Below are positions 28,330 to 55,323 of a stretch of 64,000 nt of DNA, in pieces. The DNA is from Candidatus Sigynarchaeum calidifontis (lineage in GTDB: Archaea > Asgardarchaeota > Lokiarchaeia > Sigyniarchaeales > Sigyniarchaeaceae). The notes below the pieces were generated by a model. That model saw only the letters and a program-made list of their open reading frames with translations. It was not told the DNA's origin and made no database searches. How positions within the stretch are numbered: position 1 is the stretch's first letter; every line of letters starts with the position of its first letter. Location of the stretch: the NCBI GenBank assembly GCA_030587475.1, contig JAUQYZ010000031.1, positions 35,173-99,172 of the forward strand, in the 5' to 3' direction. Both the position numbers and the translations under genes were made by a program.

Positions 28330-29316
28330 ATGGAACTTGTTGAACAAGTGAAAACACATCTTGATTCAATCAAATCGATTAACGGCGTCGAGAACGTTGT
28401 TTTAACACAAAGGGATGGAAATCCAATAACCTCATCAGGTGTATGGCTATCAAGGAACGAGATTTTTCATGTTTCTGCTGCTACGAGTGCGATTTATAAT
28501 GTCGGGTTGTCATTGCACGGGGTATGGCTGAAGTACATGGTCATCGAAGGTCCGAAAGCAAAAATCCTAATTGCTCCATTGCACGATGGCGCGTATGCCA
28601 TCCAGCAAAGCGCGGGTTCGAGCATGGAATGGGCAGAATATTTCATAGCTCTGACCACGTTGTCAAACGTGAACCTTGGAAGCGTTTTTATCAAGACACA
28701 AACTACATTGAACAACATAAACGATTTAATCCTGAAATCCAAATGCGATTTCAAACCACCATTGCGGGAGTTCAACGAGAAGCAAATCGAGTACATACTT
28801 AACAAATTCAATTCAAAGCAGGAAAATGACGAGTTGAACTCTATAGCATCCTTTGATACGAGCCTGGGATTCGACACGTTCCAAAAATGCGAGGAAATCT
28901 TGTGGAGTTTCAATAAATGCGTGCCAGACTTGATCTATTCTTGCGTCTCATTCAAAGGCGGGTATATCGTGAATTCAATACAACCTCGCTCCGGTTTCAA
29001 CCTGACACCAGACGCCGAGACGGCAATGTCCTTCTCGCTGTACGATACTGCATCGAGATATGCCTGGTTGCTCAAAAAAATGAACACGAGTTCTATCTTC
29101 CTCGATTGTAACCACTATTTCCATTTTATATTGGGCTTTGATGCCGGCATCTTCAGTTCCTTCGTTTACAGGAATGAGCAGAAGATTGGATTTATCCGGT
29201 TGCTGTTGCCGAAATATTTAGACTTGATTCAAAAGGTTCTTGATGAAAAAGCTCGGCCTCAACAGCCGTCTGAACTGGTGCCGGGCAAGGCGTTCAGCCC
29301 GCTATTGATTCGTTAG
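28330..29316 (+). CDS. Protein with two roadblock/LC7-type domains
   Basis: A 328-residue protein with two similar alpha/beta modules. Residues 5-110 match the roadblock pattern: first helix, NGVENVVLTQRDGNPI strand pair, middle helix, then KILIAPLHDGAYAI strands. Residues about 175-305 repeat this layout in divergent form (FDTFQKCEEI helix, YSCVSFKGGYIV strands, HFILGFDAGIF). Roadblock proteins bind Ras/Rag/MglA-type GTPases as regulators, for example MglB with MglA. It is the first gene of a four-gene operon with an MglA-like GTPase, which strongly suggests partnership. The second domain is less certain than the first. Confidence 0.75.
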   Translation: MELVEQVKTHLDSIKSINGVENVVLTQRDGNPITSSGVWLSRNEIFHVSAATSAIYNVGLSLHGVWLKYMVIEGPKAKILIAPLHDGAYAIQQSAGSSMEWAEYFIALTTLSNVNLGSVFIKTQTTLNNINDLILKSKCDFKPPLREFNEKQIEYILNKFNSKQENDELNSIASFDTSLGFDTFQKCEEILWSFNKCVPDLIYSCVSFKGGYIVNSIQPRSGFNLTPDAETAMSFSLYDTASRYAWLLKKMNTSSIFLDCNHYFHFILGFDAGIFSSFVYRNEQKIGFIRLLLPKYLDLIQKVLDEKARPQQPSELVPGKAFSPLLIR

Positions 29317-29327
29317 GTGAATATGCC

Positions 29328-30230
29328 ATGAACTTGATGGAACTCTTATCGCTTTTCCCGCCGAATGATTTTGCACTTGTCCTACGATGCATTTTCGACC
29401 GGATTCCCGTGATAGTTGGTGGAAAAGATAAAGATTTTCTTGACGACCTTCTCATCGAATTGTGCGATTTTATGCCCATAAGAAAAGAAGTAATTTTTGG
29501 CACGGATTTTCTCGAAAGGGAAGAGCACGAGGTCATAATCCAGGAAGAACGGATGAATTATGACAACCATCGCATCATCTATCGTTCGCCAATAAATTCA
29601 GAGGACATGGTTCTCAAGAACATCGAAAACATCAAGGGATGGGTTATCGGGTTGTGTATGAACGGCGATGTCGATGCATTCTATGAAAAGGCTCTTCGCA
29701 TCCGGAAGAAAAGTCCGGTTTCGATATTTGTCAATTTCGATGAAAAAAACAAATTGGAATTCGTGAAATTGTATGCTGAAGATAATAACAAGCTTGATAC
29801 GAGCTTGGAAAAGATGATTGTCAAGAAGACGTTTTCTCAGACGGAACACGCGCTGGAACGCATCAAGCGCGTGTTGGATAAAAAGATTCAAGGGAATAGC
29901 GATATCAACTCGTCAATCATCGCAAGCGTGGTCGACCTCACGCAAGAGGAATCTATCATCAAGGAGAACGTGTTCAAGAAAGAAATCCTGGAATTCTATC
30001 AAGCGTCTCGACGCGGCTTAGCCCTGTTAACGAGGCTGAATTTCTTAAATCAATTCCAACCAGTGAAGATCGGGAAAAAAACCTTTTTCGATGCAATTTC
30101 GTACGACGATGTAAACACGTCACGCTTCTTGGATTTCGTCCAAGCTGAATGGGGCGAGTGTTTCAATGGATTAATTGATGACAGCCGTCTTTCAATTCTC
30201 GGCGATCACCTTGATAGTCTTTGGGGGTAA
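29328..30230 (+). CDS. Unknown protein of the GTPase operon, possible DENN-like module
   Basis: A 300-residue soluble protein, not matched to a named family. Its start, LLSLFPPNDFALVLRCIF then RIPVIVGGKDKDFLDDLL, has the pattern of the cDENN opening in eukaryotic Rab GEFs: helix with an LxP motif, leucine-rich helix, R-x-P-V strand, long helix, then a second strand (EVIFGTDF). Residues 150-210 form charged helices and the C-terminus is a small alpha/beta region. It lies 11 bases after the roadblock gene and five bases before the GTPase gene, so it is a plausible regulator of that GTPase. The DENN comparison is inference only. Confidence 0.6.
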   Translation: MNLMELLSLFPPNDFALVLRCIFDRIPVIVGGKDKDFLDDLLIELCDFMPIRKEVIFGTDFLEREEHEVIIQEERMNYDNHRIIYRSPINSEDMVLKNIENIKGWVIGLCMNGDVDAFYEKALRIRKKSPVSIFVNFDEKNKLEFVKLYAEDNNKLDTSLEKMIVKKTFSQTEHALERIKRVLDKKIQGNSDINSSIIASVVDLTQEESIIKENVFKKEILEFYQASRRGLALLTRLNFLNQFQPVKIGKKTFFDAISYDDVNTSRFLDFVQAEWGECFNGLIDDSRLSILGDHLDSLWG

Positions 30231-30235
30231 CCATA

Positions 30236-30811
30236 ATGATGATTAATTACAATGGAAAAGTGGTGCAAACAAAAATCGTTTATTATGGCCCGGCTATGTC
30301 GGGAAAGACTACAAGCTTGAAAGCCTTGTTCAAGTCGATGAACAAGGATTCAAACCTGAAGTCAATCGAGACCACTACTGGCAGAACGCTTTTTTTTGAT
30401 TTTGGGACACTGGATTTCAAAGGCCTCGAATGGACGATAAAAATTTACTTGTATTCAACCACCGGCCAAGATTTTTATCAGAGCACCAGGCCTGCGACAC
30501 TTTGCGGTGTCGACGGTGTCATATTCATCGTGGACTCACAACGCAATTTGCTTCAATACAACAAAAACTCGTGGAATGAACTGCGGCGATTCTTTTCTGA
30601 CAAGATCAAGCAAATCCCCATCATTATTTGCATGAACAAATATGATATCGAGGACAAGATTTCGGATAATTTACTGCGTGACGAGTTGAAGATCTCAAAG
30701 AATCAGAACATCAAGATCATCCCGTCCATCGCAATTGAGGGTATTGGTGTGAAGGAAGCATTCTGCGAGATGATGAGCCACATATTCCCAAATTTCAAGC
30801 TGGAGATCTAA
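30236..30811 (+). CDS. MglA-like small GTPase
   Basis: A 191-residue Ras-superfamily GTPase. G1 is YGPAMSGKTT (residues 17-26), a conserved Thr region follows near ETTTGRT, G3 is STTGQD near residue 75 with the DxxG Asp replaced as in MglA-type proteins, and G4 is MNKYD. Length is normal and there is no C-terminal Cys for lipidation. ATG 30236 is chosen; the TTG at 30221 overlaps the previous gene. Operon context with a two-roadblock protein recalls the MglA/MglB polarity switch of bacteria. Confidence 0.88.
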   Translation: MMINYNGKVVQTKIVYYGPAMSGKTTSLKALFKSMNKDSNLKSIETTTGRTLFFDFGTLDFKGLEWTIKIYLYSTTGQDFYQSTRPATLCGVDGVIFIVDSQRNLLQYNKNSWNELRRFFSDKIKQIPIIICMNKYDIEDKISDNLLRDELKISKNQNIKIIPSIAIEGIGVKEAFCEMMSHIFPNFKLEI

Positions 30812-47037: not shown

Positions 47038-47565
47038 ATGTTGAAAAAAATAGGCGTTCAGAAAGGTTTGAAAAACATTAGCATTGATGCTGATTCCCAT
47101 ATCATCTACAAGAAGACCAATTTCTCACTAGTGGTATTGCGTCCAACCGATCTGGCGCAGATGGGGGATCTGATAGGACAGGGGAACAAGGACATTATCA
47201 CCTGGATAGGAAAGACGGTCGGTCGAAACGTTGCTGAGGTCGTCTACAAGGATGAATCGCCAAAGACGAACGCCGAGCTGCTCGAAAAATCTTTTAGAAC
47301 CCTGGAGATGCTTGGCTTCGGCATCTTGAGCTTGCAAAATTACCAAGACGATATCGGCTTCCAGGTCAGGGTGGAAAATCCTCTTTACGAGCATCTCGAA
47401 GAAAATCAAGAAATCATCAGTAACATCTATCTTGGGATATTCCTCGGCATCCTTGAATACATCGGTCGCAAGGCCAATGGTATAGAAACCGAGGTAGCAT
47501 GGAAGACCCAAGGAATCACACATTCGACATTTGAATTGAAGATTGAGGGGGTTGTTACGCAATGA
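47038..47565 (+). CDS. V4R domain protein (Bet3/TRAPP-like fold), first of two
   Basis: A 175-residue soluble protein. The first 55 residues end in a helix that introduces the domain (IGQGNKDIITWIGKTVGRN). The C-terminal half has the V4R pattern: NIYLGIFLGILEYIGRK glycine-rich helix, then TEVAWKTQGITHSTFELKI strands. V4R shares its fold with Bet3, the core of eukaryotic TRAPP. It is the first gene of an operon and overlaps the next gene as ATGA. Confidence 0.75.
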   Translation: MLKKIGVQKGLKNISIDADSHIIYKKTNFSLVVLRPTDLAQMGDLIGQGNKDIITWIGKTVGRNVAEVVYKDESPKTNAELLEKSFRTLEMLGFGILSLQNYQDDIGFQVRVENPLYEHLEENQEIISNIYLGIFLGILEYIGRKANGIETEVAWKTQGITHSTFELKIEGVVTQ

Positions 47566-48053
47566 AATCGCTCAAGCTGAAGGGGCTCGAGTACACGAAC
47601 GGTGTGATCCGCCTATTTGACGAGCGGGTTGTTTTATTCCCTCCGTCCATCATTGGCTTGCTTTCGTCTATTTACGGAGAGGGTGCGGAACCTTTGCTCG
47701 TATTCCTCGGCAAAAAGCTCGGACGTACCATGATCGAGAAATGGGACTTCGAACTCAAACCGAAAAATATCAAGGAAATAACCGAGCTTTTCTCCGATCT
47801 TTTCAGCACCACGGGATGGGGACAGATGGTCGTGAGGGACGTGACGGACGACCAGATCATCTTCCAACTCATGCACAACGTGTCGAAAACCTTGGAAATC
47901 CCCTCCAAGTTCATCGATTTCTTCATCACCGGATACATAACCGGCTTCGCCGAGTACATTTATTACAAGGCAAAAGTACAAGAAACGCTATGCATGATTG
48001 ACGACGAGAACCTTGATTTCTGCCAGTGGGTCGTGAACCGGATCCCGACATAA
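47562..48053 (+). CDS. V4R domain protein (Bet3/TRAPP-like fold), second of two
   Basis: A 163-residue relative of the preceding protein, translated from an ATGA overlap. FLGKKLGRTMIEKW, FFITGYITGFAEYIYYK and ETLCMIDDENLDFCQWV reproduce the helix-glycine-helix and final strand of V4R. The two proteins are diverged enough to form a heterodimer, as Bet3-family pairs do in TRAPP. A roadblock-Rab fusion gene follows after 61 bases. Confidence 0.75.
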   Translation: MKSLKLKGLEYTNGVIRLFDERVVLFPPSIIGLLSSIYGEGAEPLLVFLGKKLGRTMIEKWDFELKPKNIKEITELFSDLFSTTGWGQMVVRDVTDDQIIFQLMHNVSKTLEIPSKFIDFFITGYITGFAEYIYYKAKVQETLCMIDDENLDFCQWVVNRIPT

Positions 48054-48114
48054 AAGGCTGTTTCATTGCGTTCTCGCGCCAATCATCCCGATTATTGTCC
48101 GAAGCGGGGGAATT

Positions 48115-49137
48115 ATGTCGATCGACGTGAAAAAACTGGAAATGCTTTTGGAATCATACTTGAGTAGGACCCCCAATCTAATTTCTGCCCTAGTGGTCGA
48201 TAGGGACGGGCTCGTGATCAGTTCCAAGGCAAAGAAGAAAAAAACGAACGTCGACGAGGACCTCCTATCGGGTATCAGTGCCGTCGTTGAACCGATCTTG
48301 AAAAAGATCACGAAGGAATTCAAGACCGGAACGTTCGGCAGCGGCACGTTCGACACGGACAACTACCGCCTCGTGTTCCTGGAAGCCGGCAGCTATTCCC
48401 TCCTCGTGACAGTCGCAGACTTTTATGCTAACCTGGACGACATCTACCCATACGCATACATCTGCGCGGAAAAAATTTCCCGGCTCTTTGATAACCGGAC
48501 GGTTGGCGCGGACATTCCCATGATCAACCTCGGGGTTCCGAGAAAGGAAATGGAGCCTATGAAGGATGGCAAGATCAAGCAGATGAAGTTCGAGCCGGGG
48601 GATTACGTCTTCAAGCTAGTGATCGCGGGAGACGGGGCAGTCGGGAAGACGACACTCGTTCAAAAATTTGTCGAGGAAAAATTCAACGAGGATTACCTGG
48701 CCACGATCGGCGCCAACATCATGAAAAAGGAATACAAGCTGCGTGGCGAGGACGTGGTCTGCCAGTTCAGCATCTGGGACCTCGCTGGCCAGGACCTATT
48801 CAAGCGCGCGAGGAAGAGTTACTTCGCGAACGCCGCTGCGGGCATCATCGTGTTTGACGTCACCCGGAAAGTAACGTTCGAGCACGTGAAGGCTTGGATG
48901 CTCGAGTTCCAGATCGTGGGAAAGCCAATCCCCATCGTACTCGTCGGGAACAAGGTGGACCTCGTCGATGCACGCGAGGTATCCCAAACAGATGCGGAGG
49001 CGTTAGCCAAGGAGCTGAACCTCTCCTACATCGAAACGAGCGCCAAGAACGGGTCGAACGTGGAGGAGGTGTTCGAGATGCTCGCGTACTTCCTCGTGAA
49101 AGCAAACTTCTCCCAAACCGAGTCCATCGCGTTGTAA
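48115..49137 (+). CDS. Roadblock domain fused to a Rab-like small GTPase
   Basis: A 340-residue fusion. Residues 3-125 are a roadblock/LC7 domain ([16 protein letters not shown] strands, [19 protein letters not shown]). After a linker, residues 160-325 are a complete GTPase: G1 GDGAVGKTT near 170, G2 Thr in YLATIGAN, G3 WDLAGQ near 222, G4 GNKVD, G5 [12 protein letters not shown]. All catalytic residues including the Gln after G3 are present. There is no C-terminal Cys for a lipid. It lies in the same operon as two V4R proteins. In cis the roadblock may regulate the switch or dimerise it. Confidence 0.93.
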
Positions 49138-49226: not shown

Positions 49227-50234
49227 ATGGTATCAAAAACTTGCGAACAGTGTGGCGAGGGCAGTTACATGCTCTTCCCGTGCCGCCATTGCGGGAAGTC
49301 GTTCTGCGCGTCCCACCGGCTCCCCGAGAACCACGGCTGCGCGGGAAGTGCTTCCCCGCCGGCGTCCATGACCTCCCCCGCTTATGGAGGCTCGTATTCC
49401 CCGAACTATGCTGACCAGGACCTCGAGATGGCCCAAAACCTGGCGAGGGCGCAATCGCGGATCCAACAACCCCGGGAGTATGTCTGGGAACCCAAGATCA
49501 CGGAGTTCGACGGCGACCCCTTCGACCCGAAGAGCGGGGTCATCCTGAAAGGCGTGTTCTGGCCCAAGGGGAAAGAAGCATTTCACATCATCATCGCATT
49601 TGTGCTAATGTTCTTTATCGGAATGTTAATCAGCAATAGCGCTTTTCTTGGGGTTATACTGCCTGGTTTTGAACCGCTTGAGCAGCAACTGTTCCCGTTC
49701 TTCCTTGCCTCTATGTCGACCTCGGGCTTCTTGATCCACGAGTTTGCACACAGGCAGACCGGGCGGAGGTTCAAACTGCCCGCAAAATTCCGGCTCCTCA
49801 CGTTTGGTCTCATGTTAACTGCAATAGGGATCGTACTATATTATGCCACGAATGGCCAATTTCCCCCTTTTGCATTACCCGGGGCAGTGGTAGTGATTGG
49901 GCTTGAGAAGAGGGATCAAGCAGGAAAATGCAAGGCTGCAGGACCGATCTCGAACCTCATCATTTCACTCGTGTTGATTCCCATCGCATTTCTAACAGCA
50001 AGCATCCGTCTAGGATTTGAATACTTCATATTGTTCATCTACGGCTCTTATTTTAATTCATTCCTTGGCCTTTTCAACATGCTCCCCGTCGGGTTGCTCG
50101 ATGGCCACGAAATCCTCAAGTACAAGAAATGGTTATGGGTGCTCTTGTTTTTCTCGCTTCTCAGCTTGTGGATCTTCGAGGTGATAGGCGTTTTAAAAAA
50201 TGCTAATTATTGGTTCACCCTGTTCTATTCATGA
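49227..50234 (+). CDS. AN1-type zinc finger fused to site-2 protease (M50) membrane domain
   Basis: A 335-residue protein. Residues 5-40 hold an AN1-like zinc finger ([21 protein letters not shown], then [12 protein letters not shown]). After a Ser/Pro/Gly linker the rest is a polytopic membrane metalloprotease with the catalytic LIHEFAHR motif near residue 172 and the third ligand Asp in [12 protein letters not shown] near residue 285. It would cut membrane-embedded substrates. The AN1 finger may bind ubiquitin-like or other protein tags, which is inference. It begins 89 bases after the GTPase fusion. Confidence 0.88.
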
Positions 50235-52368: not shown

Positions 52369-52648
52369 TCGATGTCACCACGAGTGCACGTTGGGAAGCA
52401 GATCAGCCTACTTATTCTCGATCGGTGGGTTTTATTTCTGAAACTTTTCTCGTTTAGGCCGCGCCGGCATCAGATGACCGGGATCTTGAATTTCTAGATG
52501 TTATGCCGCTGTCGCATCCCATCCCCGCCTTGAAAGGTGATGACTTCCTGGTGGTCAATTTAAATACCCTCGAAAAGTTGAAGATATAAGATGCATCGTG
52601 TTCTATGATACGAACGGATAGGCCGTGGATCGCGTCGGATTGATTTTC

Positions 52649-54552: not shown

Positions 54553-54789
54553 GAACGCGTTCACCATTTCATGAAAATGCTCTCTAAGATGTAGTATCCG
54601 ACAAGATTAAAAAATGTTATTCAAAAGTCTTTTTGTCCGCTTTCGTGCCTTCAAATTAAGCGCTTAAACATTTAAATCTTTAAAACCCCTAGTTCCTTAT
54701 TGTTATAATGAAGTTACTAAAAATTGATGTGCCGTCGAGATAGGTGCACAGATTCACAAACGTCCCTTGTCCAATTGGCTGATACATTC

Positions 54790-55323
54790 ATGACCGTGGC
54801 ATCTTGGATCTTCAAGCTGATCGTGGCCGGCGCGGGCGGTGTCGGCAAGACCGCACTGGTCCAGCGCTTCTGCACGAATTCGTTCATCACGGACCACAAG
54901 ATGACCATCGGGGCCGCGTTCAGCATCAAGGACATCACGTTCGAGAACGGCGTCAGCATCAAACTGCAGATATGGGACTTTGCCGGCGAGGAACGTTTTC
55001 GATTCCTGCTCGGCGATTATTGCCGGGGCGCTTCGGGGGCGCTCGTGTGTTTCGACGTTACCGATTACGAGACCTTCAAGCAGCTCCCCGAGTGGATAAC
55101 GATCATCCGGAAGGAGGCTGCTTCCGTGCCGATCCTGCTCGTGGGAACGAAGTACGACCTGCCGAACCATCAAGTGCCGTACGAGCTGGCCGCGCAGTAC
55201 GCGACCGACGCCGGGTGCATCGGCGCGGCGTATTGCTCGTCGAAAAATGCCACGAACGTCGAAGAGGCGTTCATGTCCATAGGGAAGTGGATGGTATATT
55301 TTGCGACGCTTCCTGGCTCATGA
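54790..55323 (+). CDS. Rab-like small GTPase
   Basis: A 177-residue Ras/Rab-family GTPase. G1 is GAGGVGKTA near residue 13, switch I has MTIGAAF, G3 is DFAGEE near residue 63, G4 is GTKYD (Thr instead of Asn), G5 is CSSKNATNVEE. No C-terminal lipidation Cys. ATG 54790 gives a normal start; in-frame codons from 54724 would add 22 residues. A TATA-like TTTAAATC at 54671-54678 lies upstream. A single gene, not in an operon with roadblock genes. Confidence 0.92.
   Translation: MTVASWIFKLIVAGAGGVGKTALVQRFCTNSFITDHKMTIGAAFSIKDITFENGVSIKLQIWDFAGEERFRFLLGDYCRGASGALVCFDVTDYETFKQLPEWITIIRKEAASVPILLVGTKYDLPNHQVPYELAAQYATDAGCIGAAYCSSKNATNVEEAFMSIGKWMVYFATLPGS

Follow-up and report, generated by a model that had tools for sequence, protein, structure and literature searches.

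Do the small V4R-type proteins encoded beside GTPase genes in Asgard archaea act on those GTPases, and do they parallel the TRAPP/Rab system of eukaryotes? The question is raised by a locus of three genes (O1, O2 and O3; 47038–49137, plus strand) in the 6.36-Mb genome of Candidatus Sigynarchaeum calidifontis. The locus lies in a 64,000-nt stretch of DNA, here called the window (G000:C283:35173-99172, where G000 is the genome and C283 the contig). O1 and O2 are V4R-superfamily paralogues and O3 joins a roadblock domain to a Rab-type GTPase; the original prediction was that they may be a minimal TRAPP-like activator and its GTPase. We find that linkage of V4R genes with GTPase genes recurs in Lokiarchaea. 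Our best reading of the locus itself, held with somewhat less than even confidence, is that the two V4R proteins form a sensing heterodimer and that this dimer controls a switch made of a small GTPase and a roadblock domain.

The V4R pair and the roadblock–Rab fusion

O1 (47038–47565; 175 amino acids, no cysteines) and O2 (47562–48053; 163 amino acids) share an ATGA at 47562–47565, a 4-base overlap of the O1 stop with the O2 start that was described originally and is present, and their translation is probably coupled through it. Neither protein matched the Pfam V4R family PF02830 at E ≤ 1, and the TRAPP family model was absent among the families found at that threshold; its number, PF04051, is taken from PMC2253512. 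O2 matched DUF2507 below the Pfam cut-off (2.2e-5).

Membership of the V4R superfamily instead emerges from relatives and from structure prediction. Relatives of O1 do match PF02830, and two of them narrowly pass its cut-off of 31, an L041 protein with 31.3 and a G045 gene with 31.8. When the O1-family profile was compared with the Protein Data Bank (PDB), 13 of the 14 matches, all weak (E 0.016–0.43), were to TRAPPC3/Bet3, to Thorarchaeal (Thor) TRAPPC3 (7yh3) or to the V4R protein MJ1460. The O1 and O2 families are homologous to each other (hhalign, 98.7%). For O2, an AlphaFold (AF2) model built from 40 sequences, of which only two were O2 proteins while the others belonged to the O1 family, reached a pLDDT of 82.8 and a pTM of 0.79, with the element order strand-strand-long helix-helix-strand-strand-helix-strand-strand. 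Among the 50 Foldseek matches listed for this model, the closest solved folds were the V4R sensor domains of MopR, PoxR and DmpR (TM 0.72–0.79), followed by Bet3/TRAPPC3 chains (TM 0.55–0.58) and then by H-NOX and YslB; E was 1.5e-6 to the MopR V4R domain and 2.3e-5 to 3.7e-4 to Bet3/TRAPP chains. YslB, which shares the fold of the O2 model, was also retrieved from the PDB by the O2 profile (0.35). The top PDB matches of that profile were to Fis1 (E 0.005), which we judged a chance similarity and rejected as a relative.

As modelled, O2 is a V4R fold nearer to the bacterial phenol sensors than to Bet3/TRAPPC3, and O1 is placed in the V4R/Bet3 superfamily by its homology to O2 and by its relatives. 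The predicted pair of adjacent V4R-pattern proteins is thus borne out, and structure prediction, carried out for O2, returned the expected Bet3-superfamily fold. The hallmark of V4R and Bet3 proteins, glycine doublets in helices 2 and 5 (PMC2253512), is found in both families: the O1 alignment has glycine at G58 and G133 in 25/25 rows and at G62 and G137 in 23/25, and all 19 O2 rows have it at G50, G54, G124 and G128. By eye, the second doublet is incomplete in the O1 proteins of G019 and G012, which lie outside alignment A1. The V4R domains of MopR, PoxR and DmpR sit in transcription activators, whereas O1 and O2 stand alone and are paired.

Strong matches to the O1 family are confined to the order of the window genome, and 48 O1-family relatives in a named genome collection are all titled Lokiarchaeota or Lokiarchaeia. 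At E ≤ 1e-6 the O1 profile matches 71/227 genomes of the phylum and the O2 profile 65/227, counts that include cross-hits between the two families and weak matches in genomes of other orders; those of the latter proteins that were scanned are V4R proteins of other kinds. The O2 family forms one clade (support 100/100). In many O1 proteins of family f4 (f1–f7 are the family numbers of the search tool) the C-terminus is extended by a tail with an end similar to VSDFLASL, a possible docking peptide (e.g. L093:5959-6552), which is missing from the O1 of the window and from the 173-residue O1 of genus g8.

O3 (48115–49137; 340 amino acids) starts 61 bp after the O2 stop and is, as predicted, a roadblock domain fused to a complete Rab-like GTPase. 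Residues 15–100 match Robl_LC7 over the Pfam cut-off (E 1.6e-6) and residues 167–324 match Ras (E 7e-49); the GTPase motifs are complete, ETSAK included, the G domain is nearest to Rabs, and the nearest solved structure is a Thorarchaeal Rab (7ezb). The last 20 residues contain no cysteine and so no prenylation cysteines, and Thor-Rab and the GTPases of MK-D1 likewise have no C-terminal prenylation cysteines (PMC10933270). In MK-D1, roadblock- or longin-GTPase fusions and MglA-like GTPases have been described (Tran et al. 2024, PMC10933270).

Conservation of the pair and the GTPases near it

The O1-O2 adjacency is found in two families, f1 (the window genome and G002) and f2 (G006, G014 and G019; the contig of G012, also f2, ends inside O2). 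The same 4-base overlap is kept in G002 and G019, and gaps of 17 and 2 bases separate the genes in G006 and G014, respectively. Between G002 and the window, identity is 57% for O1, 72% for O2 and approximately 80% for O3, and the retention of all three genes with the overlap makes the arrangement more than a chance one. In f4 the two families occupy separate sites (e.g. C10 and C2 of G021). A gene that we take to encode ribosomal protein L3 adjoins the window pair, lies 0.9 kb from O2 in G002 and is within 5 kb of O2 in 4/6 f4 loci; another, presumably Orc1/Cdc6-like, is also near O2 in 4/6 f4 loci. Two genomes, G001 and G161, were left out of absence counts because the L3 gene of the region is missing there as well.

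Paired and solitary O1 proteins differ in their cysteines. Every one of the 21 solitary O1 rows has at least two of the three family cysteines, and the O1 proteins that adjoin O2 have 0, 0, 1, 0, 0 and 0 of them (window, G002, G006, G014, G019 and G012). Among 19 O2 rows, 16 have all three, two f1 rows have two and G014 has none. At its family cysteine columns the window O1 has 0/3 cysteines, and O2 has 2/3 of its own (C144 and C154). A cysteine metal site is present in PoxR and in Thor TRAPPC3, a homodimer with a cavity that binds Zn through four cysteines, and is missing from mouse TRAPPC3 (PMC10933270); the window O1, unlike Thor TRAPPC3, has no cysteine. The loss in paired O1 fits a division of labour in an O1-O2 heterodimer, a pattern drawn from just six paired O1 proteins of two families.

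The GTPases found near these V4R genes are of different kinds. In f2 the pair is preceded by a cassette encoding a roadblock protein, an uncharacterised protein and a GTPase, co-directional with the pair in G006 and G014 and convergent in G019. The orthologous cassette is complete in the window, 16 kb upstream of O1 on the plus strand. Its first gene (28330–29316) encodes a 328-residue roadblock-type protein, homologous to cl22, whose Robl_LC7 match (5.8e-4) is below the cut-off; two f2 homologues pass it (1e-7 and 1.7e-7), and the second half of the protein may, by eye, be another roadblock domain. The second gene (29328–30230; cl21 homologue) encodes an uncharacterised 300-residue protein with a single Pfam match (E 0.15). 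The third (30221–30811; cl8 homologue) encodes an MglA-type small GTPase of 196 residues (TTG start as listed), with PDB matches to MglA at E 2.1e-28 to 7.3e-27 and to the next GTPase, Thor-Rab, at 5.3e-8. Like MglA/MglB systems (PMC4316618), the cassette couples a GTPase gene with a roadblock gene; it differs in its additional uncharacterised protein and in that, in f2, the V4R pair follows it.

At 25/26 f4 loci a GTPase of approximately 335 residues is encoded upstream of the O1 relative on the same strand. In the named genomes, some of which are also in the f4 set, 45 of the 48 O1 loci have an upstream GTPase, one of MglA type. Three of these GTPases were scanned, and in each the G domain is Arf-like. 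The N-terminal domain was modelled (pLDDT 82, pTM 0.54) as strand-strand-helix-strand-strand-strand-helix-helix, which we take to be the longin order, an assignment that no structure match confirmed. Profile A4 found no match in the PDB, the 50 Foldseek matches listed for the f4 GTPase model all came from its Arf half, and PF13774 was present in 2/6 genomes, away from the O1-linked GTPase. A longin reading of this domain is thus suggested by the modelled element order alone.

Further V4R families are linked to Rab-type GTPases. A family of approximately 160 residues (alignment A5) matches 68/227 genomes at E ≤ 1e-15 and has no match in G000, G001 or G002. In 30/30 loci examined (L268-L297; e.g. 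L268:595-2672), a Rab-type GTPase, identified by a purpose-built profile, and a thioredoxin-like gene stand beside the V4R gene, and in 21/30 the V4R gene is flanked on either side by co-directional Rab-type GTPase genes. The cluster thus consists of a Rab-type GTPase, the thioredoxin-like protein, V4R and often a second Rab-type GTPase. In G139 a separate V4R gene shares 4 bases with a Rab gene and lies 516 bp from a divergent roadblock-Rab fusion (32% identical to O3), with a 107-residue frame between them.

Other arrangements were seen in passing. At L167:1317-8965, and also in L168, L175 and L177, a RagA-like GTPase (scanned in L167) and a gene of approximately 385 residues are followed by a tandem array of proteins of approximately 425 residues; Pfam V4R was confirmed in the three proteins of the L167 array that were scanned. 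At L170:5069-7927 a KaiC-type ATPase of 589 residues with V4R in two stretches is followed by a Ras-type GTPase gene. Within the window, a 55-residue frame at 52625–52792 matches Ras (E 6e-8) but retains no more of a Ras-type GTPase than its P-loop end; it is a broken copy, because G002 has an intact GTPase gene, 82% identical over 39 residues, at the equivalent place in the block. Another Rab-type GTPase (199 residues as listed, Ras E 5.5e-42) is encoded at 54724–55323. The species label of the window genome is also carried by G160 and G161, doubtfully: the L3 of G160 is only 50% identical, and G161 has no L3 match.

Weighing regulation by a proposed V4R heterodimer

We propose that O1 and O2 descend from an ancient duplication of a V4R gene and would most likely form an obligate heterodimer. 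The dimer, in which a cavity is expected from the family, would sense a hydrophobic or membrane ligand and would relay the signal to the small-GTPase/roadblock switch encoded alongside. O3 would be the nearest candidate target: its roadblock domain should dimerise, and the GTPase would thereby be presented to the V4R pair. Just as possible a partner, and perhaps an older one, is the cassette at 28330–30811. The data establish the genes, their families, the modelled fold of O2, the overlap and the recurrent linkage; we infer the heterodimer, its ligand, its contact with the GTPase or roadblock and its direction of control, whether as guanine nucleotide exchange factor (GEF), as GTPase-activating protein (GAP) or by recruitment. 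In its favour are the tight coupling of O1 and O2 in f1 and f2, the single O2 clade, the glycine doublets of both families, the cysteine loss in paired O1, the proximity of short Loki-class V4R genes to GTPases, the modelled V4R fold nearest to ligand-sensing MopR, PoxR and DmpR, the unlike GTPases near the same V4R genes (a Rab fusion in f1, MglA type in f2, longin order in f4) and the linkage of other V4R families to Rabs, in the Rab–thioredoxin–V4R loci and in G139.

Other observations weigh against it, beginning with the junction to O3. The adjacency of all three genes was seen only in the window genome and G002, members of a single family, where synteny spans approximately 10 genes, O1–O3 included; because this synteny is general, conservation of the junction is weak evidence of function. 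Eight further genomes from the order hold full-length homologues of O3 (44–51% identity), taken as orthologues, and 0/8 of their loci, some on short contigs, have an O1- or O2-family gene, the only two families sought. On this basis we reject a widely conserved O1-O2-O3 operon; of the conserved synteny looked for across Asgard archaea, what stands is that G002 keeps all three genes. In f2 the distance between the MglA gene and O1 is approximately 400–450 bp. Solitary O2 genes also lack GTPase neighbours: none occurs in 10.5 kb around the O2 gene of G004 (f3), which has ABC-transporter genes beside it, nor in 2/6 f4 stretches, and in the other four the nearest lies 4.6–7.3 kb away. GTPases are abundant in any case, with 64 Ras matches in the window genome.

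The gene next downstream of O3 (49227–50234, plus strand) encodes an AN1 zinc finger and M50 peptidase protein, assigned by Pfam, and an AN1-M50 gene is near the O3 homologue in 2/8 loci (G006 and G010). In G006 that homologue lies approximately 120 kb from the O1 and O2 genes on a single contig. The linkage of O3 to AN1-M50 looks older than its linkage to V4R, and O3 seems to have been joined to the V4R pair more recently, within f1, because AN1-M50 is near O3 in G006 and G010 whereas the V4R pair is not. This history would suit a reading in which O1-O2 serves the roadblock/MglA cassette and the adjacency of O3 in f1 is a by-product of rearrangement, as would the position of the cassette at the f2 pairs, its presence 16 kb away in the window and an MglA-type gene 5–7 kb from O2 in 3/6 f4 loci. 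In f2 and f4 a type II/IV secretion ATPase gene (T2SSE, cl2) accompanies the V4R gene; it lies 2.2–2.6 kb from O2 in 7/11 O2 loci (L062, L063 and L075-L079), where an uncharacterised gene, cl3, is 0.3–0.6 kb from O2. Bacterial MglA controls type IV pili, and the ATPase gene hints that a pilus- or secretion-type machine may be the target. We nevertheless consider this reading somewhat unlikely, given that the f4 O1 adjoins a different GTPase, the f1 pair is 16 kb from its cassette and the T2SSE homologue of the cl2 cluster is missing from the window. Our confidences in the several readings do not add to one, since this one is partly contained in the heterodimer reading.

A controlled test of adjacency also tells partly against regulation. 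A search of 16 chosen genomes with PF02830 (E ≤ 1e-3) returned 72 hits, which fall in 66 genes and make up 58 loci, with matches in 15 genomes and none in G002. A GTPase, called by purpose-built profiles, was within 3 kb of 13/58 V4R loci and of 6/40 random places, so that proximity to GTPases is no general rule for V4R genes in Asgard archaea. The random places came from 12 contigs of seven genomes and were not matched to each case genome, and two of the six GTPase-positive ones overlap V4R loci by chance. In the Loki class, 10/11 short V4R genes (≤210 residues) and 2/13 long ones were near a GTPase (Fisher p 0.0006; short against random, p 6e-6). This split by class and length was chosen after the data were seen, and the 11 short genes represent approximately four families, with six genes in one; two are O1 relatives already known, without which the count is 8/9. 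In other Asgard archaea the counts were 0/22 for short genes, two of them without an assigned frame and several genomes being fragmented, and 2/20 for long ones.

The pair might accordingly be a ligand-binding V4R unit of unrelated function that fell beside an abundant GTPase gene. The number of Ras matches in the genome, the rate at random places, the general synteny block and the solitary O2 genes that adjoin no GTPase all point that way; the fact that several V4R families recur beside GTPases of different kinds does not, and we hold a fortuitous neighbourhood to be unlikely.

The TRAPP/Rab parallel drawn by the original prediction survives in part. Shared with the eukaryotic core are paired Bet3-fold paralogues associated with a Rab (PMC10152722), and the superfamily assignment, the roadblock–Rab fusion and the proximity of short Loki-class V4R genes to GTPases agree with it. 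The catalytic core of TRAPP is a longin heterodimer. The complex uses this longin pair and a Bet3 C-terminus that lies near switch I, and the Bet3 C-terminus favours opening of the nucleotide pocket (PMC10152722). By analogy with Bet3/Trs31 and the longin pair acting on Ypt1, the V4R pair and the cis roadblock would together open the pocket of O3, and the longin-order domain of the f4 GTPase and the recurrent V4R-GTPase linkage would suit such a minimal GEF. The parallel does not extend to the details: O2 is nearer to phenol-sensor V4R domains than to Bet3, the operon has no longin heterodimer and no PF04051 match but a roadblock fused to the GTPase, which has no C-terminal cysteine, O3 homologues exist without these V4R genes adjoining, and the GTPase neighbour common to the sister family f2 is of MglA type with its own roadblock gene, not O3. 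A TRAPP-like GEF for O3 is possible but seems to us quite unlikely.

Candidate partners for Asgard small GTPases

Small GTPases number in the dozens in Asgard genomes and have no known regulators, and matching the two from genome layout has been called difficult (PMC10933270). That paper was the only one found in a partial literature search to deal with both V4R proteins and small GTPases of Asgard archaea. The proteins described here share with its Asgard TRAPPC3/V4R, Rab and roadblock proteins a fold superfamily and the Rab and roadblock families; the difference is that V4R genes are here linked to GTPase genes in several lineages. All parts of the locus belong to known families, and the V4R-GTPase linkage is the variation.

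A wider and rather unlikely possibility is that lokiarchaeal V4R dimers are dedicated regulators of several small GTPases (Rab, MglA-type and longin-fused Arf-like), with roadblock or longin domains in cis or nearby. Such proto-TRAPP modules, in which a Bet3-fold subunit adds ligand or membrane input, would predate the eukaryotic complex. The linkages supply concrete candidate pairs of V4R proteins and GTPases, so that a pre-eukaryotic Bet3-fold regulator of Rab-like GTPases becomes testable. The operon thus offers candidate partners for studying how GTPases were controlled before eukaryotes, and its relatives show similar pairings with different switches.
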